From a virus, in IMG/VR virus record IMGVR_UViG_3300010885_043119, positions 18,209 through 82,208 of that record: a stretch of DNA of 64,000 bases; one strand, written 5' to 3'. The notes beneath the pieces were generated by a model. That model ran no database searches. It saw only the letters and a program-made list of their open reading frames with translations, and was not told the DNA's origin. Of this stretch, positions 5,824-53,302 are shown one piece after another. The position numbers were made by a program, and so were the translations under genes. The first letter of the stretch is position 1; each line of letters opens with the position of its first letter.

Positions 5824-6327
5824 CTAAAGACCACTAGGAACCATTAGACCATTAGACCCGTTAGAAAAATTTACACTTATGAATGCCGTTATCTGGTTGT
5901 TAAGTTCTCTTAAGTCTCCAGCGTTGTTCAAAACATGAGTGCAGTTAGAAGAAGTATAGGTTACCGTTGGGTCTTTGGCAATACCTGGCCTATCAACCCA
6001 AACTGCTATTTTTATAAGTCCTTCCTGTAAAGCAGTTTGCAACTCTAAAAAAGTTCTTGCACCACACACAATAGGGCTAAATTTTAAACAAGTTCTGATT
6101 AATTTGGCAGGGTCATCACCCCTGTATTCTTCTAGTATTCGCTTCCAGTCTTCTCGTATCTCATGCCTAGTATCCCAAGCTAACTGGTCAGGAATGCCTA
6201 GTTTTGCAGCGACTATCTCTTTGTGCATCCAAGATATGCTGCCTGCGTATGGAATACCTGTAATTTTAGAAAACATATAAGCAGACGTGTCTTTACCAGA
6301 CCTACCGTATCCACAGAAAGCTATCAT
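5824..6327 (-). CDS. Deoxynucleoside monophosphate kinase (P-loop)
   Basis: A 167-aa kinase of the T4 gp1 / adenylate-kinase-like group, which phosphorylates dNMPs to dNDPs for phage DNA synthesis. The N-terminus MIAFCGYGRSGKDTSA is a Walker A motif (GYGRSGKDT) typical of these kinases. RHEIREDWKRILEEYRG gives the central substrate-binding helix, and VCGARTFLELQ followed by IKIAVWVDRPG matches the core strands of the family. The length fits. The start follows AAAGGGGTAACT. A terminator-like hairpin follows the gene. The exact nucleotide specificity cannot be read from the sequence. Confidence 0.75.
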   Translation of the reverse strand: MIAFCGYGRSGKDTSAYMFSKITGIPYAGSISWMHKEIVAAKLGIPDQLAWDTRHEIREDWKRILEEYRGDDPAKLIRTCLKFSPIVCGARTFLELQTALQEGLIKIAVWVDRPGIAKDPTVTYTSSNCTHVLNNAGDLRELNNQITAFISVNFSNGSNGLMVPSGL

Positions 6328-7878: not shown

Positions 7879-8553
7879 TTAGTTTGATGGGTCTAGCCAC
7901 TGTCTAAAATCACCTAAAGTATCTTCTGTTACCACCTTATGAAGTGGAAACATTTGTCTGTATTTATGTAACGTGTACTCTTCTGTAGCTATCACTGGTT
8001 CACCCAACGGAAAAGGCGCTTTTAAAACGTCCTGCGCATAACAATAAGAATAGTATGCGCTTATAGCTATTGCAGCTTCTCCTAGTGGAAAAGAACCCTT
8101 TAAAATATACTTTGCATACATATAAGAGTGTTTTGCAACTTTAGATATAGCGCGCTCTCCCAATATAAAAGGAGCTCTTAAAACATCCGTTGCATAATAG
8201 TAAGAGTATAATGAGCTTTTAGATATTGCATCCTCGCCCAATGGGAAAGGTGCCTTTAAAACTTCGTGTGCATATTCATAAGACGTTACCGCACTTGCGG
8301 CTATCGCAGCTTCTCCTAGAGGGAATCTACCCTTTAAAACATCTTTAGCATAACGGAAAGAGCAGCTTGCACTTGTAGATATAATACGTTCATTTTTTGT
8401 GGGCTCCGTGCTGCGTATTATCTTGCTGCGTATTCTCCTACCAAAGGCATCATGCAACTGAGGATCTTGTAAGTGCCGGATGTAAGCTTGCAGTTCTAGG
8501 CTGTAAGCTGTTTCTGGGCTCATCATGTATTCTAAGCTGTTGGAACTAGCCAT
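7879..8553 (-). CDS. Protein of 26-residue repeats (paralogue 1)
   Basis: A 224-aa protein. After an N-terminal helical region (about 1-55) there are five tandem 26-residue repeats of the form SYxYAxDVLKxPFPLGExAIAxSxxY, then a short cap ending LGDFRQWLDPSN. The repeats probably stack as paired helices in a HEAT/solenoid-like manner; this is inference. Similar YAxDVLKGxFPxGE repeats occur in other phage proteins of unknown function. The start overlaps the end of paralogue 2 by 22 bp and is preceded by AGGAG with 10-nt spacing; MMSPETAY nine codons downstream is an alternative start. Confidence 0.7.
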   Translation of the reverse strand: MASSNSLEYMMSPETAYSLELQAYIRHLQDPQLHDAFGRRIRSKIIRSTEPTKNERIISTSASCSFRYAKDVLKGRFPLGEAAIAASAVTSYEYAHEVLKAPFPLGEDAISKSSLYSYYYATDVLRAPFILGERAISKVAKHSYMYAKYILKGSFPLGEAAIAISAYYSYCYAQDVLKAPFPLGEPVIATEEYTLHKYRQMFPLHKVVTEDTLGDFRQWLDPSN

Positions 8554-9215
8554 GCTTTGAAGTCTCCTAAATTAGCATTAACAACCTTCTCTGCTCTCTT
8601 AGGAAAAAGAGCTACATATCTTTTTAGTGTGAATGGGCACTTAGATATAACCGCCTCACCCAATGCAAATGGAGCTTTTAGAACATCTCTTGCGTATTCA
8701 AAAGACCACTCCGCACTTGTAGCTATTGTAGCCTCGGCCCTAGGGAAAGGCGCTTTTAGTATATCCCTTGCGTAAAAATGAGAGTGCCTTGCATTATTAG
8801 ATATTTGAGCTTCCCCTAATGGGAAGGCCGACTCTAAAACGTCTTTTGCATACAAATAAGCATGAACTGCTTCGGTAGCTATAGCATCCTCTCCTTTTGG
8901 AAAAGGACCTTTTAAAACCTCTTGTGCATAACAACGAGAGTAATAAGGATCAGCGGCAATAGCAGCTTCGCCTTTTGGAAAAGAACCTCCTAAAACGTTC
9001 TTTGCGTAATAATAAGAATTATATCCACTAGAGGCTATGCAGTCCTCCACCGACGTAGCCCTGCCCTTTACAATTTCTTTTGCATACTTGTATGCTATGC
9101 TCGGGTCTTCAAAGATAAGTGAACGGGCAGCAGAAAGCTTGTCCCAATCTAGCCCTGCGGCTTTATCAGGTACAATAACTTCTTTAAGATATTTAAAACT
9201 CTCATCTGTGGTCAT
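8532..9215 (-). CDS. Protein of 26-residue repeats (paralogue 2)
   Basis: A 227-aa protein with about six 26-residue repeats (SYYYAKNVLGGSFPKGEAAI and relatives), a cap with LKRYVALFPKRAE, and a C-terminal LGDFKAWLVPTA. It is clearly paralogous to the gene downstream, sharing the repeat consensus and tail. The start follows AAAGGAGAACAAC. The function is unknown; the solenoid form suggests protein binding. Confidence 0.7.
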   Translation of the reverse strand: MTTDESFKYLKEVIVPDKAAGLDWDKLSAARSLIFEDPSIAYKYAKEIVKGRATSVEDCIASSGYNSYYYAKNVLGGSFPKGEAAIAADPYYSRCYAQEVLKGPFPKGEDAIATEAVHAYLYAKDVLESAFPLGEAQISNNARHSHFYARDILKAPFPRAEATIATSAEWSFEYARDVLKAPFALGEAVISKCPFTLKRYVALFPKRAEKVVNANLGDFKAWLVPTA

Positions 9216-11444: not shown

Positions 11445-14400
11445 CTAATGCTGGGCAAACCTCTCAGGTATGCCCATAACCTTACAATCCTCCTTGGTAA
11501 GCGGTATCGACCATTTGGTAAATACTTCAGTCGCTATGCCTAGATGAAAAGGACCGTTACTACCACTCCTCATCGTTCCGTCTAAGTTACAAGATCTAAT
11601 CTCAACCTTGTCACTCATACAGACCGGCAAGACAGTATCAACTACCCACTCTACACAAGCATAAGGAACCTCAAGGATCACGGCATCGTGAACCTGAAGT
11701 ATTATGTCGTAGGTCATGCCTAATGGTGCAGAGTTTCTGTAGCTGTATATGTGATCTAGTGCGCACGACATAGCATCAGCTACCGCGGATTGGATTGGAA
11801 AATTCATGCTTTGACGTTCATACTCAGCGACGACAAGCCTGTCTTCACTAGGAGAGAATCGCCTGTATCTTCCAAAAGCATTACTCATCCAACCTGGGTG
11901 CTTAACTCTTGACTTGCACTCATTGAAGTACAAAGGAAGCTTAGGGTACATTGCAACTAACCCGTCTATAAGCTCTTGAGCTTCTCTTACCGATATTATG
12001 ACACCCTCTTGCTTTGCCTTTCTAGCTGTAGAGTCAGCCCCTTGACCATAGGCGTAACCAAATACCACAGCTTTAGCAGCTGTTCTAATGCCTGACTTAC
12101 CTATATCCTTAAGGCCTTTCTTGGTAGCTGGGCAATTCAACTTGAATGTATTTACAGCCACATTACTATGGATGTCGTAGTGATCTGGGTGATCCTCTGG
12201 AAGGTTAGCTCTACGAACGTGATCTATCATGTTCTTATCACCAGACTGCCAAGCCATAATAGCAAGCTCTGCGCCAGTATAGTCAGCCTCTACCAGTACA
12301 GTTCCAGGCCTTGCACTTATCACAGACCTGAGAGGATACGTATAGTTCATTCCAAGGTCTTTACCATGCAGCTTGAATATACCCTTATACTTTTCTTCTA
12401 TAGTCTTTCCAAGGTTCTGCATGTTTGGCCTAGATGACGAAGCGCGGCCTGTTTCTTTAGTCTGGCTAAACATAGATCTAACTCTGTCGTCAGCATTCAT
12501 GTATGAAAGAATGCCTTTGTCATAAACTATGTCACCTTCAGAATCAGTCTTCTCATTACCTGCGTCATCAAAGTCTGGGCCTCTAAGAACAGTAGTTCGT
12601 AAGTAATGAAGCGACCTTATATCTCTAAGCATAGCCACTACTGGATGCTTTTCTGCCAATATGGTAAGAGTCTCCTTGTCTACGGCAGCGGTATACATGT
12701 GCTCTTCCCTTTTGGTTATAAGGTCAGCCCACAGTTTACCTTTAGATCCTGTACCAGTACTCTTATAAGGTGTTAGAGAAAGAGTCATAGCATCGTCAGG
12801 TCTTTGCTTTATGAATCCTCCGTTTATGTCCCTCTTACCAGATAGCTCCTCACCAAAAAGAAGCTCTCTGTTATGAAATGTACTCGATGGGTTATAGTCA
12901 GGCCAATGTATGACAGCTCTTATCTTAACCATAAGGTTTTCATAAAGAAGGTTGTATGAGTCAGTAAGCTCCAACACCCTTGCTTTATCTATTAATATTC
13001 CCTTTTCATGCATCTCTATAAATGCAGGATAAGCTCTAGATGACAGCCAGAAGGCTGGCCTGCAGTTGTTACCATACTTATCAGCGTCAAGTTTACCCTT
13101 AACACCACTATGCCCGTTGTAGTAGTCAAAGAGCCTTCTTGTAACATCTGCGTCATAACACCCATAAGGTATGATGACATCGTCAGGGCAGTCTCCGTAT
13201 CCTTCAAGCTCTGAGTCTTTTATACCCTTAGCCCTACAGTGAGCCTTACGCCAGTCCAGAATAGGACCTTCCCATCTAGGCACTCCGCAGTACCTTACAG
13301 CCTGCTCCTCTAGATTAAAGTAGTCAGTCTCGTTTACAGAGTGAGCAGCTAAAAGCGTATCAAAACCACCAAAGTCTCTAGTCTTTTCGAAACCAAACTT
13401 ATAGTCAGGCCCGTACATGCTTATAGGGTCGTCTTCTGGAGCCATGAACAAATTTGAAAGATCTACACCTATAGACTTAAGCCAAGGTAAGTCAGAGGTA
13501 AGGTAGTGACCTACAACTCTGACATGTCTTCCATCTTCTGGATAAAATATAGAGTTCAGTATAGAGCTTAGAGCGTCAGGACCTCCATCAAATACAAAGC
13601 CTCCTCCAGCTTCATTTACAATTATGCTGCAAGCTACTCCAGACTTCCAAGACAGCTGTACTGTTCTAACGTAAGAGTTCTTATCTCCAGGCCATGCACC
13701 ATTCCACTCAAGGTCAACTGCTACTACTGGTACAGGATCTTTAAGTATCTCGTCTCTAACCTTTACAAGCTCTTCGCTAGTTCTAACAGCAAAGTGATTT
13801 ATATTAGCTTCTTTAGACAAGAACTCTACGTCATTGCATAACGCAGAGAAGTGATTCAAAGAAGCTTCAAACCTATCACTATGCTCAGGGTATCTAAGTA
13901 CATAAGCTGGGTTAACGCAGGTTATAGCCTTTGCTATGTGGAAAGATCCATCAGGCAAAGGAATGTTAACTTCAAACACCTTACCAGTAGATGTATGTAA
14001 GCGTTTGTCTCTACCAAGGACAGCCTTAATAGCCTCGTCACCAAGTAGAAGCATGAAGTCAGGTTTAACCAATGCCATTTCTATCTTTAGCAATGGAGCA
14101 CAGTTGTGTATCCAATTTGCTTTAAGAGCATTGCTAGCAGGATCAAGCAAAGTATGTTTTACAGAACAAGTCATATAGAAGTCAGATTCAGATAACCCAG
14201 GTATTCCTGAAAGGTGTTTATACAGCTGACTTTTTCTTGTTCCTGAAAGTATTCTTCCAGCAGCCTCGTCTTGACTTGAAGCACACTTACCAACCACCAT
14301 GCATTTAAACTTCCTAAAAGGACCAGGCCTGCAGTTGTCCATCCAACCGCTACCAGGAACCATGTTTACACTTAATATGTTTCCGTTAAACATGACTGGA

Positions 14401-14651
14401 AGGCTAAAGTTTTGGCAGTATAAAGCCCTGAAGTAAAGAAAGTCACAATAGAAGTCTACTGCTTCAGGATACTCAGGGCCAGCTAGCTTGTCAGCGCACT
14501 GATAAAAGTCAGGACCTGGCTTTGCTACTATGTGCTTATTCTTAGAAGGAAATATAAAAGGGTAATTTATTAAAGGACCTGTCCCCTCTTGTAGTAAAAG
14601 AAAGTTTCTATAAGTGCATATACTTTTAAAGTCTTTTATTAAATCAATCAT
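11445..14651 (-). CDS. DNA polymerase I-type replicase with N-terminal UDG-like domain
   Basis: A 1068-aa fusion. Residues about 113-270 resemble family 4/5 uracil-DNA glycosylases: VVGKCASSQDEAAGR in place of GEAPG..ED, DFYMTCSVKH, a PLLKIEMALVKPDFMLLLG segment, and CVNPAYVLRYPE in place of HPA/HPS. The catalytic positions are altered, so it may be inactive. About 305-520 is a DnaQ-type 3'-5' exonuclease (AVDLEWNG, GHYLTSDL, YGCYDADVTRR). About 690-1068 is a Pol A domain: motif A VEADYTGAELA, motif B RTAAKAVVFGYAYG, motif C QVHDAVILEVP. The usual HDE of motif C is HDA. The Phe in motif B implies ddNTP discrimination. The start follows AAAGGAGTGGCCTA and overlaps the primase stop. Confidence 0.9.
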   Translation of the reverse strand: MIDLIKDFKSICTYRNFLLLQEGTGPLINYPFIFPSKNKHIVAKPGPDFYQCADKLAGPEYPEAVDFYCDFLYFRALYCQNFSLPVMFNGNILSVNMVPGSGWMDNCRPGPFRKFKCMVVGKCASSQDEAAGRILSGTRKSQLYKHLSGIPGLSESDFYMTCSVKHTLLDPASNALKANWIHNCAPLLKIEMALVKPDFMLLLGDEAIKAVLGRDKRLHTSTGKVFEVNIPLPDGSFHIAKAITCVNPAYVLRYPEHSDRFEASLNHFSALCNDVEFLSKEANINHFAVRTSEELVKVRDEILKDPVPVVAVDLEWNGAWPGDKNSYVRTVQLSWKSGVACSIIVNEAGGGFVFDGGPDALSSILNSIFYPEDGRHVRVVGHYLTSDLPWLKSIGVDLSNLFMAPEDDPISMYGPDYKFGFEKTRDFGGFDTLLAAHSVNETDYFNLEEQAVRYCGVPRWEGPILDWRKAHCRAKGIKDSELEGYGDCPDDVIIPYGCYDADVTRRLFDYYNGHSGVKGKLDADKYGNNCRPAFWLSSRAYPAFIEMHEKGILIDKARVLELTDSYNLLYENLMVKIRAVIHWPDYNPSSTFHNRELLFGEELSGKRDINGGFIKQRPDDAMTLSLTPYKSTGTGSKGKLWADLITKREEHMYTAAVDKETLTILAEKHPVVAMLRDIRSLHYLRTTVLRGPDFDDAGNEKTDSEGDIVYDKGILSYMNADDRVRSMFSQTKETGRASSSRPNMQNLGKTIEEKYKGIFKLHGKDLGMNYTYPLRSVISARPGTVLVEADYTGAELAIMAWQSGDKNMIDHVRRANLPEDHPDHYDIHSNVAVNTFKLNCPATKKGLKDIGKSGIRTAAKAVVFGYAYGQGADSTARKAKQEGVIISVREAQELIDGLVAMYPKLPLYFNECKSRVKHPGWMSNAFGRYRRFSPSEDRLVVAEYERQSMNFPIQSAVADAMSCALDHIYSYRNSAPLGMTYDIILQVHDAVILEVPYACVEWVVDTVLPVCMSDKVEIRSCNLDGTMRSGSNGPFHLGIATEVFTKWSIPLTKEDCKVMGIPERFAQH

Positions 14652-15702
14652 TAGGCCACTCCTTTGATGCTTCTGGCATCGACTCTCCTATGTCTTGAAA
14701 CTGAGATTGGAGACGTCTCCACAACTCCATCTTTAAAGCGCCTGGGTCTTCATGCTTATCCATCTTAACTTTTATGATCTTAGACCTTGGAGCAGCCTGC
14801 TGAAGCTTGTCAACTAAAGACTCAGCCTTGTAAGCCACGTCTCCGTCTAAAGCTATAGCTATGGGCTTACCATTAAAGTTCTGTCCGATTAAAGCAAGCT
14901 GACCAGCACTACAGTCACTGCCGAATATAGCTACACCTGCCGGACCTATTGACCAAACATCTATTGGACCCTCACACACTACTATCATTGGTTGTAGCTT
15001 CGCATTGTCTATGTTGTAAAGAAGCATGGACTTCTTCATTCCAACTGGGTTTATATATTTTTGTTTCTTCTTCAATGGGTCGTCATAAATTATTCTTGCC
15101 TGATAACCCATTAACTTTGAACCTTGAAATATGGGTATGTAAAGTCTTTCTCTAAGGGTTGGAATAGCCATGTCGTCTATCCAGCCTACACCTAGATACT
15201 TATCAAGAACGGCTGGGTTATATCCCCTAGACTCAACATACTTTATGGCTTCGTGATCCTTGCTAAGAGACGATAGGCTTGTAAGTCTTTCTGGAGGTCT
15301 GCATTCAGTAAGAGCTATCAATGCCTCAGAAGACATAGGCTTATCAACTACTGAAAGAGTTATCTTAGAAGACGTATTGAACAACCACATGTGAAGTTGA
15401 TCTAAGTTAAGCTTACCTAGCTCGCCTCTAGTGCATGCTGTCTCGTTAAAGCAGTTTGCCATGTGTCTGTACTCAAACCATCTGTGGTTTATGTACAACC
15501 TATGTCTTGTCTCTTTACAAAAAGGACAGCAGACCCTGTAATATTCTCCATTTACTATAGAGGTAGGCCTCTCTCCATTAGATGAGGGGCGCATCACCAT
15601 GCCGACCCCTCTATTATTAACATAGACCTGACCAAACAACTTCTTAAGCTTAAAGTATAGTTCAGGGCACAACACGTCATCATAACTAGTCGAAGTGCTC
15701 AT
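14644..15702 (-). CDS. DNA primase with zinc finger and TOPRIM domain
   Basis: A 352-aa DnaG-type primase. The N-terminal zinc site uses CCPFCKETRHR with further Cys/His residues in HMANCFNETACTRG. YIPIFQGSKLMGYQARI is the RNA-polymerase-core segment. The TOPRIM domain shows CEGPIDVWSIG (EGxxD) and IALDGDVAYKA (DGD). It would make primers for the adjacent replicative polymerase and pairs with the helicase gene 11 bp upstream. The start follows AAAGGAAAGTT. The gene carries a copy of the dispersed palindrome near its 3' end (14708-14721). Confidence 0.85.
   Translation of the reverse strand: MSTSTSYDDVLCPELYFKLKKLFGQVYVNNRGVGMVMRPSSNGERPTSIVNGEYYRVCCPFCKETRHRLYINHRWFEYRHMANCFNETACTRGELGKLNLDQLHMWLFNTSSKITLSVVDKPMSSEALIALTECRPPERLTSLSSLSKDHEAIKYVESRGYNPAVLDKYLGVGWIDDMAIPTLRERLYIPIFQGSKLMGYQARIIYDDPLKKKQKYINPVGMKKSMLLYNIDNAKLQPMIVVCEGPIDVWSIGPAGVAIFGSDCSAGQLALIGQNFNGKPIAIALDGDVAYKAESLVDKLQQAAPRSKIIKVKMDKHEDPGALKMELWRRLQSQFQDIGESMPEASKEWPND
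14708..14721. repeat. Dispersed palindrome, copy 1 (TGGAGACGTCTCCA)
   Basis: A 14-bp perfect palindrome inside the primase gene, read there as the codons for WRRLQ. It is one of six copies in the window. Confidence 0.85.
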
Positions 15703-15713
15703 AACTTTCCTTT

Positions 15714-17372
15714 CTAGGAATCCCTGTCAGAGTAATCATCGGAAGCTGCTTTGTAACTTCGGCTTGTTGGTACATCCATAGAGCTGCCTGAGAACGATGC
15801 TCTTATAAAACCTGCTTGCTCATCTATGACCCATTCGTTGTTTAAAGAGTAAGTGCACGAATCAGCTTCAAACTTTATGACTGCACAATTCTTAGAAGTA
15901 TGTTCATCCTCCCTATACTTAGTAGCGTCAAGCCTTTGACATCCGCTGTTTAAGTCCTTCTGCCCAAGGCAAAACATCCTATGGCAGTTTTCAGCAAAGT
16001 CCTTACATTCGCTAGCCATGGAGTGATGAAGCGGCTTATGAGCTTTAATACTATTAGCTTCTCCACTAAGCTGATGAAGAAGCCAAACGCAGCAGTTATA
16101 GCTAAGACCTATATTGACTGATACGTCTTCAGCTAGCTTTCTTATGTAGTGACGCATGTTCTCAACTTTTATACCCTTAGCCGATATGTGCCTGTCAACG
16201 ATAAGCTTAACGTAATCGACAACCATCAAAGCTATCTCAACGTTCTTAAAGTTAACTAGCTTGTCAACCTGGGCTGTAAGCTCAGAAGTGTAGCCATGCC
16301 CGAGCTTAGTACCTCCGGAGCCGCTCATGTCAAGAAGTTGAACATACGTGTTAACTAATGACTTTGTATCCCTGAACCTATCTGACTCTGAAATCCTAAG
16401 AACTTCTTCTATAACTCCTGAGTATCTCTTTAGCTCGTAATCTTTAAGGTTGCCGCTAGTTGAAAGAAGAGCTCCATTAATAACGTGGGCCTTAATAGTA
16501 TTTAATGGAGTTTTAGACACAGTTGCAGCAAGCCTAAGTCTTATAGAGTCTATGTTACCTTCGTAATTAGCATAAACGCCTACTTTACGCTTATACGGCC
16601 TTCCTTCGGCTAAACATAGAATCTCTCTAGCTCGCTCAGTAAAGCAATGGTTGGCTATAATGTTTATACCCATCCAAGTCTTACCTGCGCCTGTACCAGC
16701 AAGAAGACCGTAAATGTCTCCAGCTGCAACCCCTCCTGTCATAAACTTGTCAAAGTAAGGTAGACCCATTGGAGCTCCTATAGCTATGTTAGGTTTCCAA
16801 ACGTCTGGAATAGACTCACACATTGCTGATGAGCCAGCTCCTTTAAAGTTGTTGTATATTTTGCTAAAATGACCTAACAAGATAGAAGGGTCTTTAGACA
16901 CTGATTGAACAGATGATGTCTTACTAAAGTGACTGTACAGCTTATCGTGTACGCCTCTCTCGGTTAAAAACCTTTGAATAACTTCTCTACATATATGACG
17001 GTTAGCCTCTACGTTGTCTTTAGGAACTAAGAAAGCCTCGTCTATTATTTGAAACACAGACTGCTTAAGTTGAGCTGCCTCATGAGTGCCTCCCCTGAGC
17101 TCGTCATCATCGATAGTTATAGTTTTGAATATTTCAGCTGTAAGCGACAGGTCTTTGTAAACCGTCTTCATGTAAAGCTTAATACTATTAACGATAACTC
17201 TGTAAGCTCTTTCATCGTGACTAAAGTATCCTGTGTTAAAATACTCTAGCGACTCAAGTATTAGCAGACGGTCCGCTATAAGATGCTTTACCATGAAGTC
17301 TACTGTAGTTGAATCAAGCCTGTAGACCGTCTCTATAGTAGTATCTACTAAACTTTCAGATTTATCATGCAT
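15714..17372 (-). CDS. DnaB/gp41-like replicative helicase
   Basis: A 552-aa hexameric-helicase-type ATPase. Residues about 1-190 are helical (DnaB-N-like). The RecA-fold motor follows: GDIYGLLAGTGAGKTWMGIN holds Walker A (GTGAGKT), VGVYANYEGN precedes the catalytic Glu region, ALMVVDYVKLI is Walker B, and VWLLHQLSGEAN matches the sensor segment (xxQLSRxxE) of the family. The C-terminus is Ser/Asp-rich. It should unwind the fork with the primase encoded just downstream. The start follows GGAGGTCATATGC. Confidence 0.85.
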   Translation of the reverse strand: MHDKSESLVDTTIETVYRLDSTTVDFMVKHLIADRLLILESLEYFNTGYFSHDERAYRVIVNSIKLYMKTVYKDLSLTAEIFKTITIDDDELRGGTHEAAQLKQSVFQIIDEAFLVPKDNVEANRHICREVIQRFLTERGVHDKLYSHFSKTSSVQSVSKDPSILLGHFSKIYNNFKGAGSSAMCESIPDVWKPNIAIGAPMGLPYFDKFMTGGVAAGDIYGLLAGTGAGKTWMGINIIANHCFTERAREILCLAEGRPYKRKVGVYANYEGNIDSIRLRLAATVSKTPLNTIKAHVINGALLSTSGNLKDYELKRYSGVIEEVLRISESDRFRDTKSLVNTYVQLLDMSGSGGTKLGHGYTSELTAQVDKLVNFKNVEIALMVVDYVKLIVDRHISAKGIKVENMRHYIRKLAEDVSVNIGLSYNCCVWLLHQLSGEANSIKAHKPLHHSMASECKDFAENCHRMFCLGQKDLNSGCQRLDATKYREDEHTSKNCAVIKFEADSCTYSLNNEWVIDEQAGFIRASFSGSSMDVPTSRSYKAASDDYSDRDS

Positions 17373-18858: not shown

Positions 18859-20412
18859 TTAAAGTTCTTCATCTACTGAATCAAACGCTTCATCTAATAT
18901 GTCTGCTTCAAAGTTATGAGTATCTATCTCAGACTTAATAAACTTCTCAGCCCAACCCATTTGCTTGTAGCTAGCCCTTCTACTCTTACTTCTATTAAGG
19001 AAAGTAAAATCGAAGGCATCCATGAAATCAACAACCAAACCAAACTTTTTACCTGACTCGTCATGTTTTCTAGCAACTCTACCTGGAGCTTGAATATCTA
19101 CTATCTTGCTAGATCTAGCATCTGCTCGTATCAACACGCAAAGCTGTGCAAAGTCTACACCTGTAGACCACACGTCAGTGCTTATAACTTTTTTTAGAGT
19201 AGCCCTCTCAAAGCCAAGTCTCATATCTTCTCTTCTAGCAGGAGTCATCAAAGGCTCGGCAACTGGGTCAATAAGTTCCTTGTTTACATAAGCTTGGTAG
19301 TCGTCTGGATCCATTGAGTCATAACACAGCTGAAACTCAGGTAGAAACTGCTTAAGATGTATAGCGTGCTCTATTGACTTAACCATGATTAAAACCTGAT
19401 CATCATCATCGTACTCTCTAGCTTTAGCCGCTATAGCTTTATTTCTTTCTTCGTTTCGCCATATACCCCACCTCTCCTTAGACACTCCACTCATATCTGA
19501 AAATGCGCTTGGACCATTACCCTTTACATACACCCACTCAACCTTGATAGGAACTACAAGGTCTACGCTTACAGCGTCGCTATATGATAGTTGGAATATC
19601 CTAGGCCCAAATATTGCTTCTAGCATGAAATGAGCTCCATCCATTCTTCCGTCTGGAGAAGCAGTGAACCCAAACTTACGTGTCCTCATAAACTTACCTA
19701 GTTCATGCTGATACGTTGGAGCTACAGCTTCGTGTGCTTCATCGTAAAGAAGGATGTCTGCCAGACCTTCGCCTTCGTGGGATATCCTATGCATACTATC
19801 AGCAGTAATAACTGTAACTCTATCCCAAGTCTTCTTCCCGCTACCAACCATTCCAAGAGCAGGTATAAACTTTGACAACCCAGAGTGAATGCGACGCATA
19901 ACGTCAACTCTTCTGGTTACTATCTGAATCTTTGCTTTTGGATAAGCCAAGCATACTGCTGCAAACATAAAAGTCTTACCAAAGCCTGTTGGCCCTACGA
20001 TGATGCCGCCGCGAGAAGTAAGTATAGCTGCCAAGCATTCATCCTGCTTGTCTCTAAGCTCCATCCTACCCTTTAGTCTCATTATGTCGTACTTGAAGGC
20101 TGGGCCGCTGTGGTATTCTTTGTCTATGTCTACAATTGAAACCTTGTAGCCTAATCGCTCTGCATCAGCTTTTACCTTTGATAAAAACCCAGCTGGGCAA
20201 ACCAAGTTATTAAGACCGTCATATTGAAACACTCTTCTTATCTCTGTGGTTATTCCACCCTTCTTTGAAAAGTAGGTGGGTTGGTTGTAAGTGTTGTGAG
20301 TGTAACAAAGCCTGCTCTCTAAGCTTTTAGACAAGTCTTCCGGTAGAGAACTCATTCCTGGCACTGACACTTGAAGCAGAGAGTTACCTATAGTAAATAA
20401 AACTTCACTCAT
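18859..20412 (-). CDS. UvsW-like superfamily II DEAH helicase
   Basis: A 517-aa helicase, taking the start at MSEVLFTIGN because AAGGAG lies seven bases before it; the frame is open 43 codons upstream but without a ribosome site. Motifs: a Q-like RDKQDECL, Walker A VGPTGFGKTF, motif II LLYDEAHEA (DEAH), motif III FGFTASP, and motif VI APGRVARKHD. The short N-terminal domain before the motor resembles UvsW-type branch-migration helicases, which remodel R-loops, forks and recombination intermediates. It works with the RecA and gp46/47-like proteins. It is transcribed from a good sigma-70-type promoter (20513-20541). Confidence 0.82.
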   Translation of the reverse strand: MSEVLFTIGNSLLQVSVPGMSSLPEDLSKSLESRLCYTHNTYNQPTYFSKKGGITTEIRRVFQYDGLNNLVCPAGFLSKVKADAERLGYKVSIVDIDKEYHSGPAFKYDIMRLKGRMELRDKQDECLAAILTSRGGIIVGPTGFGKTFMFAAVCLAYPKAKIQIVTRRVDVMRRIHSGLSKFIPALGMVGSGKKTWDRVTVITADSMHRISHEGEGLADILLYDEAHEAVAPTYQHELGKFMRTRKFGFTASPDGRMDGAHFMLEAIFGPRIFQLSYSDAVSVDLVVPIKVEWVYVKGNGPSAFSDMSGVSKERWGIWRNEERNKAIAAKAREYDDDDQVLIMVKSIEHAIHLKQFLPEFQLCYDSMDPDDYQAYVNKELIDPVAEPLMTPARREDMRLGFERATLKKVISTDVWSTGVDFAQLCVLIRADARSSKIVDIQAPGRVARKHDESGKKFGLVVDFMDAFDFTFLNRSKSRRASYKQMGWAEKFIKSEIDTHNFEADILDEAFDSVDEEL

Positions 20413-20512
20413 AATCGCTCCTTCGAACTTTAAACTCAAAATAATAGATTTATGGCAGCCTCTGGAGGTACCAGTGATTGCCACTTTTGTTGTTACTAAG
20501 TAGGTCTTTCGG

Positions 20513-20541
20513 ATTCTATTTTGATAGAAGGTTTGAGTCAA
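20513..20541 (-). promoter_or_regulatory. Sigma-70-type promoter for UvsW-like gene
   Basis: On the minus strand, TTGACT, a 17-base spacer and TAGAAT: one mismatch to consensus in each of the two boxes. It lies about 100 bases upstream of the ATG. A near-consensus host promoter marks this as a likely early transcript covering helicase, primase and polymerase genes. Confidence 0.65.
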
Positions 20542-21557: not shown

Positions 21558-23672
21558 CTATTTATAAAGAGTCAGCGTATGATCGCACATGCGCTCCATA
21601 GCTTTCTCGTGACTGACTACAATAACTTGCAGTCCAGAGGACTTAGACATAGCTCTTAGTCTATTGAAAGCTGTGTCTAAACATTCGATGTTGTCATCGT
21701 CTAGACCTACGGTTGGTTCATCAAGTACTAACAGGTTTACACCTGAAGCTACTCCAAACTGAACAGCTAGCCTGAATGCAAGAGCCAGAACAACCTTCTC
21801 ACCGCCTGACAATCTAGCCGCTGGTAAGTCTCTTCCGTCATTGAACTTTGCCCAGAACACAAGCTCGTCATCAGAGTAAACTCTGAACGGAGCGTTAAAG
21901 TCTTCTAGATACTCATTCAACTTAATCACTGTCCTCTTTAAGTAGTTTACCGTAAGTCTCTTCGGTAAGTTAGACTTATGCATAACTTCTTTAAGATTTT
22001 CAAAATGATCCTTAGCAACTTTATTAACCCTAGCTTCTTCTATGTCTCCAACCAGCTTATCTCTTCTATTATATAAGTAATCTAAAGTTTCAACAGTTGC
22101 TTTTGATTGCTCTTCAAATCGTATTTTCTTTTCTCTGTCTTGATTTACTAAATTGATGCTATCACACAATACTCTTTCTTGCATGTAGTAGTCTTCACTT
22201 ATGTTGCATTCTTTACTTCTAGTTTCAATCTGAGACAAAAGTGAGTCTCTGGTTGCTTTTAAAGAAGTTATGCAAAAGTCTAAAGCAGAAAGCTTTGATG
22301 ACAAAGACTCATAGGATGTTCTAAGCTCAGTAAAGGTAGAAATAAACTTATTAACCTCGTCTTCAGAAACAGAAGGCTGCTCAGGTCTTTCAGTCTGAAG
22401 TTTTAGTGTAATTAACTCAAGCTTACTGTTAAGACCAGCTAAGTCTGAAGAGTGTTTGTAATTAGCAGTGTCGTACTCTCTGCTAAGCTGATACTGCTTC
22501 TTCATGTGGTCTATGAGTGGAGACGTCTCCACTAGATGCTTAGATATAGCGTCTATTGCAGCTAAAAGTACTTCTCCGGTAGTACCACATACAGGGCACT
22601 CTTTCTTTGAAGTAAGTTGAATTAGGTTCTGCCTCTTAGCTTCTAAAGCCCCAGCCGACTGTGAGTACTTCTCAAAATCTAAACCACTAGACTCTATGTA
22701 AGGAGACGGCTTTATAGGAGCAGATGCAACTAGTACTGATATACTTTCTTCAACTATAACAAGCTGAGCCTCATTAGCTGCTTTGCTATTGTCGTACTTA
22801 TGTATAAGACTCCACTGATACTGATGTTTTTTATACTCAGATAGAGCTGCATCTGAGTCTTTAACTAAAGACAGGTCATCAACCTTTGCTGAAAGAGGAG
22901 GCCTAGCTTCTTCTGCCTGACTTAGATCAGACAAAACTAAACTTAGAGTTTCTGAACACTTGTTGATGTCACGTTTTACATCTTTCTTTCTTCTTACTTC
23001 GCTGAGGTCTTTTTGAAGCTCAGTGTCGTCTACTACGTTTAAAGACACTTCCTTCAAAGATTTCGATATAGACTCAAGTAGTAGAGTCTTCTCTCGTATC
23101 TGAGCAAGTACAGACTCTACAGTTTCAGATGGAACCTGCACTAATATCTTAGATGAATATTTATTTATCTCGTCGTAGCAAAGTTCTGCTTTGTCTAAAC
23201 CGTATAGCGACTGCAGAGCTGACAGCCTGTCAGATTTAGGTAAAGTAAATATGCTGAACATCTGCCATTGGTCTACAAATATGTAGTCAGACAATATGTT
23301 AGAGCTTACTCCGACCAAACCTTCGATAGCAGTAGTAACTTCTCTGTCTCCAGTCAGTGGAGGCATAGAGTTTATAATTAAAGACCGCTTGTTAGGTCTT
23401 AGGTTCCTCTTTATAACAGCCTTACCGCCTGTTGTAGAAAATGTTAGCTCTACAAATGACTCATCTTTATCTGAGCATATTTTATTAATGTTTTCTGATA
23501 GAACACCTTCATTCCTTTTAAAATCTCCAGTAAGAGCTGCGTACGCTCCCTTGATAGCGTTAGACTTTCCTCCACCGTTAGGCCCTGTTATGGCAGTTAT
23601 GCCATCAAGAAAAGTCCAGTCAAGTTCTTGATGCTGGCAGAAGTTACGCAACCGAAGTTTATCAAGTCTCAT
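21558..23672 (-). CDS. Rad50/SbcC-like (gp46-type) recombination ATPase
   Basis: A 704-aa SMC-like protein. The N-terminus MRLDKLRLRNFCQHQ leads to Walker A GPNGGGKSNAI. A long coiled coil follows, interrupted by a zinc hook CPVCGTTGE near residue 350. The C-terminal lobe has the signature LSGGEKVVLALAFRL, Walker B LLVLDEPTVGLDD and the H-loop VVSHEKAM. It forms the end-processing nuclease complex with the Mre11-like product (24514-25650), resecting DNA ends for RecA. Shorter arms than bacterial SbcC and closer to T4 gp46 in size. The start follows GGAGGTATC. Carries palindrome copy 2. Confidence 0.9.
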   Translation of the reverse strand: MRLDKLRLRNFCQHQELDWTFLDGITAITGPNGGGKSNAIKGAYAALTGDFKRNEGVLSENINKICSDKDESFVELTFSTTGGKAVIKRNLRPNKRSLIINSMPPLTGDREVTTAIEGLVGVSSNILSDYIFVDQWQMFSIFTLPKSDRLSALQSLYGLDKAELCYDEINKYSSKILVQVPSETVESVLAQIREKTLLLESISKSLKEVSLNVVDDTELQKDLSEVRRKKDVKRDINKCSETLSLVLSDLSQAEEARPPLSAKVDDLSLVKDSDAALSEYKKHQYQWSLIHKYDNSKAANEAQLVIVEESISVLVASAPIKPSPYIESSGLDFEKYSQSAGALEAKRQNLIQLTSKKECPVCGTTGEVLLAAIDAISKHLVETSPLIDHMKKQYQLSREYDTANYKHSSDLAGLNSKLELITLKLQTERPEQPSVSEDEVNKFISTFTELRTSYESLSSKLSALDFCITSLKATRDSLLSQIETRSKECNISEDYYMQERVLCDSINLVNQDREKKIRFEEQSKATVETLDYLYNRRDKLVGDIEEARVNKVAKDHFENLKEVMHKSNLPKRLTVNYLKRTVIKLNEYLEDFNAPFRVYSDDELVFWAKFNDGRDLPAARLSGGEKVVLALAFRLAVQFGVASGVNLLVLDEPTVGLDDDNIECLDTAFNRLRAMSKSSGLQVIVVSHEKAMERMCDHTLTLYK
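22516..22533. repeat. Dispersed palindrome, copy 2 (18 bp)
   Basis: AGTGGAGACGTCTCCACT, a perfect 18-bp palindrome inside the gp46-like gene, read as VETSPL in the coiled-coil region. Confidence 0.9.
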
Positions 23673-24513: not shown

Positions 24514-25650
24514 TCAAGTTCCACCACTTTTTATGTCACTAAGCATGTTATCCAACTCGCCCCTCAAATCCTCTACTGATCTGCTAGACCATAGCTTTAT
24601 AAGGTCATTGTAGCTTCTTTCGGTAACATCACAAAAATCCTTTAAAGACTCATGAAATGACGAGTTTATATCAAAAGATCCTACTAGCTTGTCCAAGTCA
24701 GAAGCTACTGATGGCAAGTCAACTATTTCTTCAATTATAGGCACAAGGTCCACGTGAGCCTTGTCCTTAAAAGCTGAAGTTATAGCTGCGTTAACGTTAT
24801 CTAACTTAGTAGAGTAACGTATCCTAAATATAGGCCGTCCTATGTCGTTAGGCATATCGTCAGACTCAACTTTTTCAGCAACCTTTACCATAGTGTGAAG
24901 GTCGCTTTCTGAGTTTATTACTGACTGAATTAGTCGCCTTGTCTTATAAGGTGCTGATACAAACCCAAGGTCTTCAGTCATAATCCAAGCTGCTTTGTTG
25001 CAAGACTCTTTCAAATCTTGAAGACATATGCTGCCTGGAGATACAAACTTCATGTCATTAACGTCTGATATAAAATGTGAGTGAAAGTCTCCACTTATAA
25101 GAGCCTTGTACTTAAGGTTGTGTTCTACTAACGAGTAAGAGCAGCAAAATTCTTGTCCTGTATGAGGAAGCAGCTCGCTCCAAACCTGATGAGTAACTAG
25201 AACATCTGCAGGTCTAAATCTGTTGTAAGAGTCTTCAACAGACTTAGGAAGAAAGTAGTCGTAACCAAAAAAGTCCACTCCTTTTATTTTAAAGTTCTTG
25301 TTATGAACGTTTTCACAACCTTTAAACAGACTAAGCCAGGTAGGGTCTGACATCTCGTGCTGACCTTGCACATAGTATACCGGCAATCCTTTTTCATACA
25401 TCCTTGCCATCTGGTTTGAAACAACATGTATGCTGTAAGAGTCAGGATTCTTTATGTCAAACAAATCACCAGCCGCTATAAGCGGTACGCTTAGGGCTAT
25501 AGCCATATCAACTATTTGTGTAAGAGAGTATTCAGCATCTCCTTTTATACTTGGAAACTTCTTCCAAGCATTAAGTGCAACATGCCAATCAGATGTAACT
25601 ACTGCCAAAGGTTTTGAATTTAAAGAAACATTATTAATAGGATTTTTCAT
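24514..25650 (-). CDS. Mre11/SbcD-like (gp47-type) nuclease
   Basis: A 378-aa calcineurin-like phosphoesterase, start at MKNPINNV because TGGAG precedes that ATG; six further codons upstream lack a ribosome site. Metal-binding motifs appear in order: VTSDWHV (DxH), AAGDLFD (GD), QGQHEM (GNHD position, here GQHE), LVTHQ and GDFHSH. The Asn-to-Gln change in GNHD is unusual, as that Asn binds metal. The product should form the end-processing complex with the Rad50-like protein encoded downstream. It is divergent from csrA, whose promoter lies in the 78 bases between them. Confidence 0.87.
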   Translation of the reverse strand: MKNPINNVSLNSKPLAVVTSDWHVALNAWKKFPSIKGDAEYSLTQIVDMAIALSVPLIAAGDLFDIKNPDSYSIHVVSNQMARMYEKGLPVYYVQGQHEMSDPTWLSLFKGCENVHNKNFKIKGVDFFGYDYFLPKSVEDSYNRFRPADVLVTHQVWSELLPHTGQEFCCSYSLVEHNLKYKALISGDFHSHFISDVNDMKFVSPGSICLQDLKESCNKAAWIMTEDLGFVSAPYKTRRLIQSVINSESDLHTMVKVAEKVESDDMPNDIGRPIFRIRYSTKLDNVNAAITSAFKDKAHVDLVPIIEEIVDLPSVASDLDKLVGSFDINSSFHESLKDFCDVTERSYNDLIKLWSSRSVEDLRGELDNMLSDIKSGGT

Positions 25651-25682
25651 GAATGCTCCACTGTCCATTGGATTTAAAACAA

Positions 25683-25728: not shown

Positions 25729-25914
25729 ATGCTAATATTATCAAGAAAAGTAGAAGAGTCTATAAAGATATCAGACGATATCGTAATAAAGATAGTTCGT
25801 ATAAGTGGCAACCAAGTTAAGATAGGAATAGAAGCACCAGCTCACATGACTGTTAGCAGGTCAGAAGATAAAACTAGATCTGTTGGTAAGTTTAACCTTA
25901 AACATACCTCATAA
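25729..25914 (+). CDS. csrA: CsrA-family RNA-binding translational regulator
   Basis: A 61-aa protein that follows CsrA/RsmA almost end to end: [20 protein letters not shown], then [17 protein letters not shown], and HMTVSRSED. The RNA-contacting residues of the family (Leu4 and Arg6 region of strand 1; the V-x-R near position 44, here VSRSE) are present. Host CsrA binds GGA motifs in mRNA leaders to block or stabilise translation. It is one of the few plus-strand genes here, with ribosome site CAGGAG and a TATAAT box upstream. Its end overlaps the convergent GT75-like gene by 17 bp. It could retune host carbon flow or regulate phage GGA-rich leaders. Confidence 0.92.
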
Positions 25915-27100
25915 TAAGTTTATTCCAATCAATAACAGCTTTAGACCAAAGCTTAAAGTAATCGCAGCACTCCTGTGAGCAGCCGCTTTCGTCTGGTGTT
26001 AGCGTCATCATCGCTTCAGCTATGTAATTAGACATAACACCAGCATCTGCCTTAGCCTCCTCAGGAGGAGCACTGTAGTTACTTAAAACCCACTCTAGAC
26101 CTCTCCACACATCTTCATTAAGTCTTATACCTGAAGCCTCTGCCACTAAGCAATTCATTCTGTCACTAAGCCTAAGGTGATCTAAGTTAGGGTAGCCATA
26201 GCACCATGCGTCACCACTAAGCTTTAAAGCAGCCTGAGCAAACAGACCAAACCATATATCATCGAATCGTTTGTAATTAGACAGCATACCCATAGGAGGA
26301 AATAAAGCATGAGGCAACATCGAGTCTATAAACGCTAGGTTCATTCCACATATAGGGTAAACCACAGAAGGATGAGCTAACACAGGACCGTGAAGTAAAG
26401 GAAGAACTGCTTTCTCAAGAGATGGGTTACTTATTCTTTGTATTGAATCAAAATCAGGCATTCCCTCCCACGTACCTACGCTCATTGAAACAAAAGGTTT
26501 GTGTAAGTGAGTTGTATTAGTAAAGTACGGCACACCTCTTACGCGCACTCCAGGCACTGTAGAAGACCAGACGTTAAAATCAAATAAATTTGATAAATGA
26601 GACTTAAAGAAGTCTCCGCCTCGTTCACCTTTTGAAGGACGACAGTCATCATCTAATGTAAATACAACATGTTCTCTATATTCATTTATCTTTCTTTTAG
26701 CGTTTAAAGAACAAGCTTGAAGAAACCCGTAACTTCGTATTGCTGAATCTTTTTTACTAAAACAAGAAAAACCTGCGTATTCAAACATATCTATAGGTAT
26801 AGGCAAGCAGTCTATCAAATTGTAGTCTGAGCTTCCTATGTAGGTTGCGTCCCAACTATGAAAATGCAAACGGTATTTTTTAATGTTGATCAGGTCTAAC
26901 AACTCGCTAAAGTCTTTAAAACCTGATGAATGACCGTCATATACTATGTGAACGTCTTCAGGAAAACACTCTAGAGATTCCCAAGCTAACAAAAAATCAC
27001 TTATCTCATTCAGCCTTATAGTTGGTACTACTAAGGAAGAATATACTAAAGGAACTTTTGATAAGTTTTGAAGATAGAACGGTTTAAGGATGTTAGTCAT
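25898..27100 (-). CDS. Reversibly glycosylated polypeptide / UDP-arabinopyranose mutase-like (GT75)
   Basis: A 400-aa protein. The order of motifs follows plant RGP/UAM proteins: [14 protein letters not shown] at the N-terminus, [34 protein letters not shown] (the DDD-type metal/nucleotide site), [27 protein letters not shown] and [10 protein letters not shown]. RGPs interconvert UDP-arabinopyranose and UDP-arabinofuranose and self-glycosylate. Whether this phage member has that substrate is not readable from the sequence. It is co-oriented with a GT2-like gene 10 bp upstream. The start follows AAAGGTATAC. Confidence 0.75.
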
Positions 27101-27949: not shown

Positions 27950-28594
27950 ATGAACACATGCTACGCTATAATAAGCACTCCAAGGTCTGGGTCAAGCGCA
28001 TTATCGGGGGTGGTTCATACTTTAGGAATAAGCATGGGAGATAGGCTTTTGCCTCCTATGGAACAAAACCCAAAAGGGTTCTATGAGGACATGGAGTTCT
28101 TAGAGCACCACGCTAACATGTACGGAAACATACCTTACTTGATGGACGGCTTAGAACCAGGAACTCCATCTCCTCCAAACCCTGCGTATGCAAGCCTGAT
28201 AAGAAGAAGATGCGTAAAACCAAAATGGGGACTAAAAGACCCTAGAATGGTATTTCTAGTTCAAGATTTCAAAGAATACCTTATGAACTGCAAACTAAAA
28301 ATAATCAGTACATCAAGGCCTATAAATTTGTCTGCAAAAAGTATGAGCAAAGTTATAAAAGTAGATTACAGAAGAGCTACTGAAATTATAGGAAGATATG
28401 AGGCTGCAAGACTTGACACACTAGCTTGGGCTGCAGAAGTTGGAATAGAAACGCTTATAGTTCCTTACAACGACTTAATTGACAACACAAAAAACACAGT
28501 TAAAAAAGTAGCTGAGTTTTGCGAGATTACTGATGAAGCCTATATAGCAAGAGCTACGAGCATAGTTGACGTTTCTTTAAGAAACAACAAGTAA
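27950..28594 (+). CDS. Sulfotransferase-family protein
   Basis: A 214-aa protein on the plus strand. The 5'-phosphosulfate loop is visible as IISTPRSGSSALSGVV near the N-terminus, WGLKDPRMVFL is a family hallmark, and KIISTSRPINLSAKSM fits the 3'-phosphate-binding strand and helix (R...S). This suggests PAPS-dependent transfer of sulfate to a carbohydrate. The weak ribosome site (AGAAAGAAAAAC) implies low expression. It is divergent from the GT2-like gene and ends flush against the convergent 83-aa gene. Confidence 0.72.
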   Translation: MNTCYAIISTPRSGSSALSGVVHTLGISMGDRLLPPMEQNPKGFYEDMEFLEHHANMYGNIPYLMDGLEPGTPSPPNPAYASLIRRRCVKPKWGLKDPRMVFLVQDFKEYLMNCKLKIISTSRPINLSAKSMSKVIKVDYRRATEIIGRYEAARLDTLAWAAEVGIETLIVPYNDLIDNTKNTVKKVAEFCEITDEAYIARATSIVDVSLRNNK

Positions 28595-43183: not shown

Positions 43184-43756
43184 CTATATAGAGTAATTAT
43201 CAATCCTAGCGTACCCAAATAAGTGAGACATATTATCTATTTCTTCTACTACTTCTGGCCACTTTTTAAAGTCGAGTCTATTTAATTTTGCATGTCTTCT
43301 TGAATTTACTTTTGTAGGTTTAGGAAGTTTGCTTATTCCTAGCGAGCTTGTAAGAAGGTAGTAACCTTCGCTACTGCTTGACCTAAGGTCTTCAACCCTA
43401 TAAAACTTGTCAGTTAGCTGCATACACAGCTTGTTCCAATTTATCCAAAACATAGCTGCCCTTAGAGCGCTATTTTTTATTTCTAATAAACCAGCTGATT
43501 CTTTTGACACAGCTTTCCATAAAGACCTTTTGTGTGTGGTTAGGCTAGATATAGCCGACCAAGGTTCTCTAACTTGATGAAGTACCGTAGGGTTTAGAGG
43601 CTGCCATATGTCCTTCAGCCTACTCATTACCATAGGCCAGCCTATTCCTCCGTCTTCCTGTAAGACTTCATGACCTATCTTGAATCCAGCGGCTTTTAGC
43701 TGTGAGTGTACAGCTGACGTTCCACTTCTTCCACATCCTACTATTACAAGCTTCAT
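43184..43756 (-). CDS. Second sulfotransferase-like P-loop protein
   Basis: A 190-aa protein. The N-terminal loop KLVIVGCGRSGTSAVHSQL is the 5'-phosphosulfate-binding site of the sulfotransferase family, and LHQVREPWSAISSL fits the 3'-phosphate-binding strand (R...S). Shorter than most family members. Substrate unknown. Ribosome site AAGGAAGTCCAAGC. Confidence 0.62.
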   Translation of the reverse strand: MKLVIVGCGRSGTSAVHSQLKAAGFKIGHEVLQEDGGIGWPMVMSRLKDIWQPLNPTVLHQVREPWSAISSLTTHKRSLWKAVSKESAGLLEIKNSALRAAMFWINWNKLCMQLTDKFYRVEDLRSSSSEGYYLLTSSLGISKLPKPTKVNSRRHAKLNRLDFKKWPEVVEEIDNMSHLFGYARIDNYSI

Positions 43757-48814: not shown

Positions 48815-49931
48815 GATCTTAGACCAATCTAATGATGGAGCTGGAGTAGGGTTGCATAGTATGACCAAGCTTTACGAAGTTCCTGAGTTTGTTAAGTCAG
48901 CTTCTACGTCGGACATTACAGGACAAGGAGGCAACCTAGCTCCTAACGTTTATGGCGACACTAGGACTTTAAAGTTCCCATGCCACAGCTCACCTGCAAC
49001 GTACGTTTCAATGTCTTACTTTTTAGACCAAGAACAGTCTCTTGGCAAGGTGGCTTCTGTAATCAAGTCACGAATACTTAAAGCTGCTGACTACTTTGGA
49101 ATCCGAGCAGACGTCGATAGCCTTGTAGAAAAGCACGCAGCTCTCAGGACACATTCTGAGAACGACCTGTCTGACTCTGACTTCGCTATGGTAGTTAACT
49201 TTGAAGACGGTAACAAGTCTAGAAGCTACCCTTTGCGTAACTCTGGCGAAGTTAAAGCTGCAGCTGATTGGATTGAAAAGTTTGCTGGAGACATAAACTT
49301 CCATGATAGAAAGATTATATCTAGCAAGATATTAGACAAAGCTTCCGAGTATGGAGTCAAGTTGGACAACGATGATACGTTGAATAAGTTAGCAGCCAAT
49401 GGCTTAGTGTCTAGGACTAAAGCCGCCAGCATGCTATTTGACAGAGCTAAGGCTCTTAAGACATTAAAGAAAGACTCAGACATACAGACTATGCTAGCAA
49501 AGACAGCTCAGCACGTATTAGAGTCTACTGATGCTGATTTAGATAAAGCAGCTTCAATTATAGAATCTGTAGATAAAGAGTATAAGCTTAAGTCTCTAGG
49601 TTCTTATTCTGACCTTTATTCTTTGTCTATTAAGAAAGCTTCAGAAACTTTAGACAGCCATGTTCAGCTTACTAACGGATCTGTATATAAAAAGGCCGCA
49701 CTTGAATCTATAGCTCTAGATGAGTTAAGGAGCGTTTTCGGTGAAGAATTCACTGATAGGGTTTCAAGCGGCGGCCTCTTGGTGGACTCTGAGAAACTAG
49801 CAGAAGAGCTTACAACACTTCCTAGGAAGGATGCAGGCTTATTTGATAAGCTTGTAGACAGCCTTGGTGTAAAGACTGCCTACAAGAAAGCATCTTTCGA
49901 TGCTATAAGAGTTGAAGACTTTATTCGGTAG
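48813..49931 (+). CDS. Hypothetical virion-region protein
   Basis: A 372-aa protein, start at MILDQSNDGAGVG because GGAG lies eight bases before that ATG. Helical, Lys/Ala/Ser-rich, with SRSYPLRNSGEVKAAADWIE. No family named, but it reads like a conserved phage protein. One of the few plus-strand genes and co-oriented with terminase, suggesting late expression. Convergent with the VWA gene (11-bp overlap). Confidence 0.6.
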   Translation: MILDQSNDGAGVGLHSMTKLYEVPEFVKSASTSDITGQGGNLAPNVYGDTRTLKFPCHSSPATYVSMSYFLDQEQSLGKVASVIKSRILKAADYFGIRADVDSLVEKHAALRTHSENDLSDSDFAMVVNFEDGNKSRSYPLRNSGEVKAAADWIEKFAGDINFHDRKIISSKILDKASEYGVKLDNDDTLNKLAANGLVSRTKAASMLFDRAKALKTLKKDSDIQTMLAKTAQHVLESTDADLDKAASIIESVDKEYKLKSLGSYSDLYSLSIKKASETLDSHVQLTNGSVYKKAALESIALDELRSVFGEEFTDRVSSGGLLVDSEKLAEELTTLPRKDAGLFDKLVDSLGVKTAYKKASFDAIRVEDFIR

Positions 49932-52965: not shown

Positions 52966-53302
52966 AATAATTCTCCTCATCGAATTGGCCAAACAGATCA
53001 ACATAGTCTTCCTCTACCACATCTATGGCAAAGGATGGAAGGCACGCTAACGTAGCGGCCTCCTTTTTTGATAGTAAACTCTTATCAATATAAGGCTCCA
53101 TCAATAGCCGAAAGTACCTATCTACAACTTTCTTGTTGATAGTACTGCAAGGTATAGCTTTAGTCATATCCCAGCTAACTGAACCTAGTAACTTAGCTGG
53201 TATACTTTTTATACTTTTTAATTGTAGGGCACTTAACGTCTTTATGAACCTATTCTTTATAGCCTTATTATTGAATTGAAGTACTTGCTCCGTGCTTAAC
53301 AT
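52958..53302 (-). CDS. Hypothetical protein
   Basis: A 114-aa protein, no family recognised. Ribosome site AAAGGAGGTGCT. Overlaps the AAA+ gene start, so it belongs to the AAA/VWA operon. Confidence 0.55.
   Translation of the reverse strand: MLSTEQVLQFNNKAIKNRFIKTLSALQLKSIKSIPAKLLGSVSWDMTKAIPCSTINKKVVDRYFRLLMEPYIDKSLLSKKEAATLACLPSFAIDVVEEDYVDLFGQFDEENYCD

Follow-up and report, generated by a model that had tools for sequence, protein, structure and literature searches.

Fusions of a UDG domain to a family A DNA polymerase (UDG-PolA) are, as such, already known from phages SPO1, PaBG and phiLo, and UDG domains on phage replicases have so far been read as uracil-repair modules; the UDG domain of the PaBG polymerase I was described in 2020 with a repair role assumed (PMC7412058), and a solved UDG-PolA structure, that of the phiLo polymerase (9qhs), was released in March 2026. 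Across these fusions (SPO1-like phages, Lupandier PaBG and others; PHROG 17) the domains run in the order UDG, exonuclease, polymerase. Motif A of the UDG domain is intact (GEAPG or near) in MW202455, vir526, phiLo, MelJY34 and RHph_TM39, and altered in SPO1 (QENP), LysYB1 (ADNP), EalM132 (QDSP), PMBT14 (GDNP), Serbin (GDAP) and KimJongPhill (GKFP). In poxviruses, the role of D4 in the polymerase complex is independent of its glycosylase activity and catalytic residues (PMC1936997).

UDG domains also occur at the C-terminus of DnaE-type polymerases from Rhizobium and Pseudomonas phages, in altered form and with motif B reading NPA or NPG; those of Pseudomonas phage nickie (L058:1570-4962; LDGP/NPA) and Rhizobium phage RHEph10 (L063:1552-4965; TDAP/NPG) are independent fusions. 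The canonical fusion of MW202455 (L014) and the reduced fusion of MW202777 (L160) adjoin genes for pyrimidine hydroxymethylase, thymidylate synthase or dCMP deaminase, neighbours which suggest that some UDG-Pol fusions are linked with modified thymine.

The fusion gene described here lies in a window of 64,000 nucleotides, the whole stretch of viral DNA that was analysed (Table 1), and is present as a single copy in its own 82-kb virus record; it is carried by the minus strand, the strand being absent from the initial annotation. Its product is best explained as a tailed phage's replicative DNA polymerase of family A, with both the polymerase and the proofreading exonuclease complete. The full-length model (AlphaFold2; pLDDT 88.4, pTM 0.84) superposes on Klenow (1kfs) with a Z-score of 29.9 over 587 residues, Pfam DNA_pol_A matches residues 655-1029 at 153 bits, the Pfam exo1 match (residues 289-402) falls slightly below its cut-off, and PHROG 17, a DNA polymerase family, covers both parts (residues 113-1014), the chain following the same domain order as the PHROG 17 fusion replicases. 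Viral contigs scanned with a profile yielded 388 encoding stretches, of which the best 80 were kept, and the relatives compared throughout are 74 distinct clade proteins. In all 74 of these the exonuclease residues D313, E315, D387, Y496 and D500 and the motif A aspartate D790 of the polymerase are invariant, as is the catalytic D989 of motif C in the 73 that cover it.

As a proofreading polymerase of family A, the protein deviates only at the motif C residue that follows the catalytic Asp, where Ala replaces Glu. The initial annotation had read this motif (QVHDAV), and the Tyr in exonuclease motif II where Klenow-type enzymes have Asn, correctly; neither is a sign of altered function, and as functional novelties both were rejected, being common among relatives. 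HDA is found in 71/74, and also in PMBT14, Serbin, StAshley, KimJongPhill and Triscuit (SPO1 and others have HDS), and the exonuclease II position is Phe or Tyr in 73/74, so that both are ordinary phage variation. In one relative (L050:9917-14569) the polymerase has 1551 aa, ~400 of them in an insert within motif B of the polymerase; this insert starts at Cys, ends HQS and looks like an intein.

The polymerase gene sits in a T5-type replication module. The order SbcD, SbcC, helicase, DnaB, primase, polymerase recurs in 13 relatives, SbcD lying beyond the fetched stretch or being undetected in some, and the order dnaB, primase, polymerase is shared with the T5-type phages (Demerecviridae). When GTDB genomes were scanned, every match was to Pol I (23-32% identity) and nearly all lacked the N-terminal part, so that no host was found. 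Genes for thymidylate synthase (TS), ThyX or dUTPase were found neither in the window's own record nor in a 190-kb contig with an identical polymerase; across 21 clade records, ThyX is above cut-off in 11 (a twelfth is below) and dUTPase is present in four, mostly in more distant members. A genome containing dU or hmU was rejected on the basis of these missing genes, the clade distribution not being diagnostic and the records possibly incomplete.

Table 1. Coordinates of the fusion polymerase, its domains and motifs, and the neighbouring replication genes (positions in the window; residue numbers refer to the fusion protein)
Feature	Position	Strand	Remarks
UDG-like / 3'-5' exonuclease / family A DNA polymerase fusion	11445..14651	(-)	1068 aa, ATG start
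N-terminal extension, residues 1-112, helices and a beta hairpin	14316..14651	(-)	Predicted structure; present clade-wide
UDG-fold domain, residues 113-285	13797..14315	(-)	Pfam UDG and predicted-structure matches
UDG motif A, residues 121-129 GKCASSQDE; K122 (14286-14288) for catalytic Glu	14265..14291	(-)	UdgX alignment
UDG middle motif, residues 161-166 TCSVKH; C162 for uracil-binding Asn (UdgX N91), K165 kept	14154..14171	(-)	UdgX alignment
C184, the one cysteine remaining among the iron-sulphur ligand positions of family 4	14100..14102	(-)	Conserved in 70/74
UDG motif B, residues 247-253 NPAYVLR; N247 for catalytic His (H178), R253 (R184) kept	13893..13913	(-)	UdgX alignment
3'-5' exonuclease domain, residues 286-512	13116..13796	(-)	D313, E315, D387, Y496, D500 intact; Klenow match starts at residue 279
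Exonuclease motif II, residues 382-387 HYLTSD; Tyr (Y383) for Asn, D387 kept	13491..13508	(-)	Alignment
Family A polymerase domain, residues 530-1051	11499..13064	(-)	Klenow 1kfs structural match
Polymerase motif A, residues 784-800, retaining D790 and the steric-gate E795	12252..12302	(-)	Alignment
Polymerase motif C, residues 986-991 QVHDAV (H988)	11679..11696	(-)	Alignment
DNA primase (Toprim), overlaps polymerase start	14644..15702	(-)	phrog_47, E 4.5e-40
DnaB-like replicative helicase	15714..17372	(-)	phrog_19, E 1.9e-21
ResIII-type DNA helicase	18859..20541	(-)	phrog_16, E 2.7e-46; PF04851
SbcC/SMC-like ATPase	21558..23672	(-)	PF13476, PF02463; order conserved
SbcD-like metallophosphoesterase	24514..25668	(-)	PF12850, weak, E 1e-4; order conserved

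Elsewhere in the window, we note a match to the reversibly glycosylated polypeptide family PF03214, known mainly from plants (25898-27100, minus strand; E 5e-13); a pair of adjacent paralogues composed of ~22-28-residue repeats like YAKDVLKGPFPLGEDAIA (7879-8553 and 8532-9215, minus); a CobT-like VWA protein (49921-51912, minus) adjoining a CobS-like AAA ATPase (51967-53004, minus); weak sulfotransferase-family matches, under curated cut-offs, at 27950-28594 (plus) and 43184-43756 (minus); and a match to phage deoxynucleoside monophosphate kinase at 5824-6327 (minus; phrog_139, E 3.8e-6).

That the polymerase is joined to a UDG-like domain, as the initial annotation had proposed, was confirmed by Pfam UDG (residues 115-262, 44.6 bits against a cut-off of 24.3) alongside the DNA_pol_A match, and the structure prediction on which that annotation had staked its assignment returned the UDG fold. 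Modelled separately (AlphaFold2, 55 sequences; pLDDT 91.2, pTM 0.89), residues 1-290 match the family 4 UDG 4zbx with a Z-score of 19.8 (185 residues, 2.9 Å), Thermus thermophilus UDG (1ui1) with 19.0, UdgX (6ajo) with 18.3 and the phiLo family A polymerase (9qhs) with 13.2; Foldseek places the domain model with 4zby at E 2.6e-10. Used as the query of a fold search, the full-length model returned polymerases only, and the UDG match appeared once the domain was folded alone. As predicted, then, the N-terminal domain is clearly a UDG fold of family-4-like type, sharing with family 4 UDGs and UdgX the fold and general motif layout, but missing the motif A Glu, the uracil-binding Asn, the motif B His, the iron-sulphur cysteines and the His of the UdgX R-loop.

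The departures from an active pocket are several. Alignment to UdgX equates E52 with K122, N91 with C162, H178 with N247, K94 with K165 and R184 with R253, and bears out the earlier readings of KCASSQDE for GEAPG..ED and of NPA for HPA/HPS; the exchange of the uracil-binding Asn for C162 had been missed. Motif A thus reads GKCAS where family 4 has GE(A/G)PG (GEQPG/GEAPG) with its catalytic Glu, and C162 and N247-P-A stand in place of the uracil-binding Asn and the motif B HPS, which some relatives retain. The stacking aromatic of the uracil pocket aligns with L135 and is lost, and of the four cysteines that would hold a 4Fe-4S cluster only C184 aligns, H166 occupying the third position and the N-terminal CxxC, which MW202455 has, being absent. 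The UdgX R-loop (KRRIH), with its cross-linking His109, falls in a 7-residue alignment gap of the window protein, and a UdgX-type covalent trap was rejected for want of this His.

No single one of these active-site changes proves inactivity, because active E. coli MUG has NPS, with Asn, in motif B (so that NPA alone is insufficient as proof) and family 5 UDGs do without the motif A acid. Three changes (K122, C162 and N247) coincide here, and the corresponding UdgX mutants N91A and H178A fold normally and have no activity, while E52A is strongly reduced (PMC10776899; PMC10359453); taken together, the three changes would make uracil excision by the window protein very unlikely. The initial annotation had suggested that the domain may bind uracil or DNA ends without cutting: binding without cutting is reasonable, because the UDG fold is present and the catalytic residues are replaced, but the ‘uracil-reading’ part of its proposal is unsupported, the N91 and H178 equivalents that serve uracil recognition in UdgX being lost.

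The pattern of change across the clade is the new element. At the E52 position the 74 distinct relatives have Lys (70) or Arg (4) and never an acidic residue, and this basic residue is invariant over sequences down to ~34% identity; the N91 position, by contrast, is Asn in 27, Phe in 22 and Tyr in eight, and the H178 position His in 55, Asn in 12 and Ser in six, with the motif B Arg (R253) and Pro kept. Several relatives (L140, L046, L096 and L097 among them) retain both Asn and His, their main departure from the canonical pocket being the change of Glu to Lys. In a tree built from the exonuclease and polymerase columns, leaving out those of the UDG, the clade forms one supported group (SH-aLRT 100) in which all members have Lys or Arg, and Asn and His were lost later and repeatedly, in several branches including the window's. 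With motif A basic in 74/74 distinct relatives and a UDG fold at pLDDT 91, the observation is not chance. As the initial annotation had advised, we compared other phage UDG-Pol fusions: several have an altered motif A, and among those compared GKxP is confined to the window clade and KimJongPhill. Where the PaBG authors assume uracil repair, this clade has a decayed pocket, and its mode of decay, with the Glu always basic and the Asn and His lost late and repeatedly, had no match in the literature that could be searched.

The domain is the sole UDG in 23/23 records searched, 21 of them from this clade. In close pairs, dN/dS is 0.16 and 0.04 for the UDG part and 0.013 and 0.05 for the polymerase part, the first value of each coming from the window protein and L025, in which the UDG evolves faster; the estimates indicate purifying selection on the UDG domain that is weaker than, or similar to, that on the polymerase part. 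The domain has, then, been retained and its basic residue fixed, whereas uracil recognition has not been kept. Net charge, varying between members from +5 to -8, was rejected as a proxy for DNA binding since its sign is inconsistent, and for the same reason the domain does not amount to a plain basic patch for binding DNA.

Synthesising these observations, we propose, with a probability that we would put at a little over one half, that the UDG domain is a glycosylase-dead module which the polymerase has kept for making contact with DNA. An ancestral UDG fold would have lost excision, through the changes of Glu to Lys, Asn to Cys and His to Asn and the disappearance of the iron-sulphur cysteines, and would have been retained on the polymerase as a DNA-contacting part; K122, in the former active-site loop, might then grip the backbone of DNA close to the polymerase, a hold that may aid processivity or strand displacement. 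This role in processivity or ‘DNA grip’ is one that we infer, in part by analogy with the poxvirus D4 protein, a processivity factor with A20, in which a UDG fold likewise serves a replicative polymerase without depending on catalysis; D4 differs in being a separate subunit that belongs to a different UDG family, is still enzymatically active and acts via A20 and a family B polymerase. The ‘DNA clamp-like module’ offered as one option by the initial annotation is, in this sense, the best that remains of its proposals.

An inert structural relic of an ancestral, active UDG-Pol fusion, packing on the exonuclease domain and making no DNA contact, is in our view unlikely. Fusions with intact motifs do exist (MW202455, vir526 and phiLo), and the domain, which outpaces the polymerase in its evolution, is shrunken in T5-type enzymes (see below), all of which would suit a relic; packing alone, however, does not predict a basic loop residue that stays invariant to ~34% identity.

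We consider it improbable that the enzyme is a ‘uracil-reading replicase’, as had also been suggested, in which the domain flips or binds template uracil uncut and the polymerase stalls or reacts. Archaeal family B polymerases do read uracil, although with a different pocket, and here the fold, the motif B Arg (R253) and the Pro are kept and several relatives retain Asn and His; the window protein itself, however, has C162 for the Asn, N247 for the His and L135 in line with the lost stacking aromatic, the recognition positions vary in the clade where the basic residue is fixed, and TS, ThyX and dUTPase are missing from the record and the 190-kb contig, so that the loss of recognition residues and the failure to find dU/hmU pathway genes both make such reading less likely. 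An active glycosylase of altered chemistry, with Lys122 in place of Glu perhaps acting as a nucleophile with lyase or cross-linking activity at the fork, would be in keeping with L046, L096, L097 and L140 and with the replaceable motif A Glu and motif B His of family 5 UDGs and MUG, but is highly improbable given that the window protein has neither Asn nor His, that four relatives have an Arg incapable of forming a Schiff base, and that the UdgX mutants at all three positions are strongly impaired or dead.

The fold of this domain probably extends to the T5-type polymerases. Among cultured phages, the best BLAST matches of the exonuclease-polymerase part are to T5-type enzymes, and on the PHROG 17 profile residue 1 of the T5-type proteins falls at position 480, against 478 for residue 113 of the window protein. 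The T5-type N-terminal domain, carried by 905 phage records, is much shorter than that of the window protein, and Pfam detected no UDG in it. Seven such N-termini (L161:2501-2935, from T5, and those of L156, L158, L159, L162, L163 and L164) were aligned by hhalign to the canonical UDG-pol domains with a probability of 97.5% and a score of 76 over 140 columns (null ≤19), MW202777, whose N-terminal domain is an intermediate, reduced form, being one of the seven rows in the canonical profile; against the window clade the score was 66. Over these comparisons, with 60 column-shuffled nulls for each, no null exceeded 22, and the remaining parts of the clade protein scored ≤15. Single-sequence HMM scores of the T5-type N-termini are weak, from 18.6 to 9.1 bits, against ≤2.6 in 300 shuffles, and establishing the link took the comparison of profile with profile. 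Lys stands at the E52 position in 6/7 of these sequences (VDKSLN, IDKCPN, VDKSPN), and their motif B is SPA, NPA or TPS. By these profile comparisons the ~145-residue N-terminus of T5-type DNA polymerases is homologous to the UDG domain and, as a lead, is probably the same fold reduced further; their Lys may have come by common descent or separately, the deep branches of the tree being long. The processivity determinant reported for T5 polymerase is its C-terminus, not its N-terminus, and a 30-residue N-terminal deletion is reported to be mild, so the DNA-grip model is weakened to some extent.

We offer only tentatively, as something rather less likely than not to hold in full, the broader idea that a single exchange of the catalytic Glu for Lys or Arg made a UDG fold the built-in DNA grip of a large replicase lineage including T5 DNA polymerase, such that phages and poxviruses would independently have recruited UDGs as processivity elements. 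With repair chemistry apparently lost and a basic residue fixed across a large lineage, a non-catalytic role for these domains becomes directly testable; and the T5 link, if true, would supply an origin, and a hypothesis of function, for the N-terminus of a classic, highly processive polymerase.
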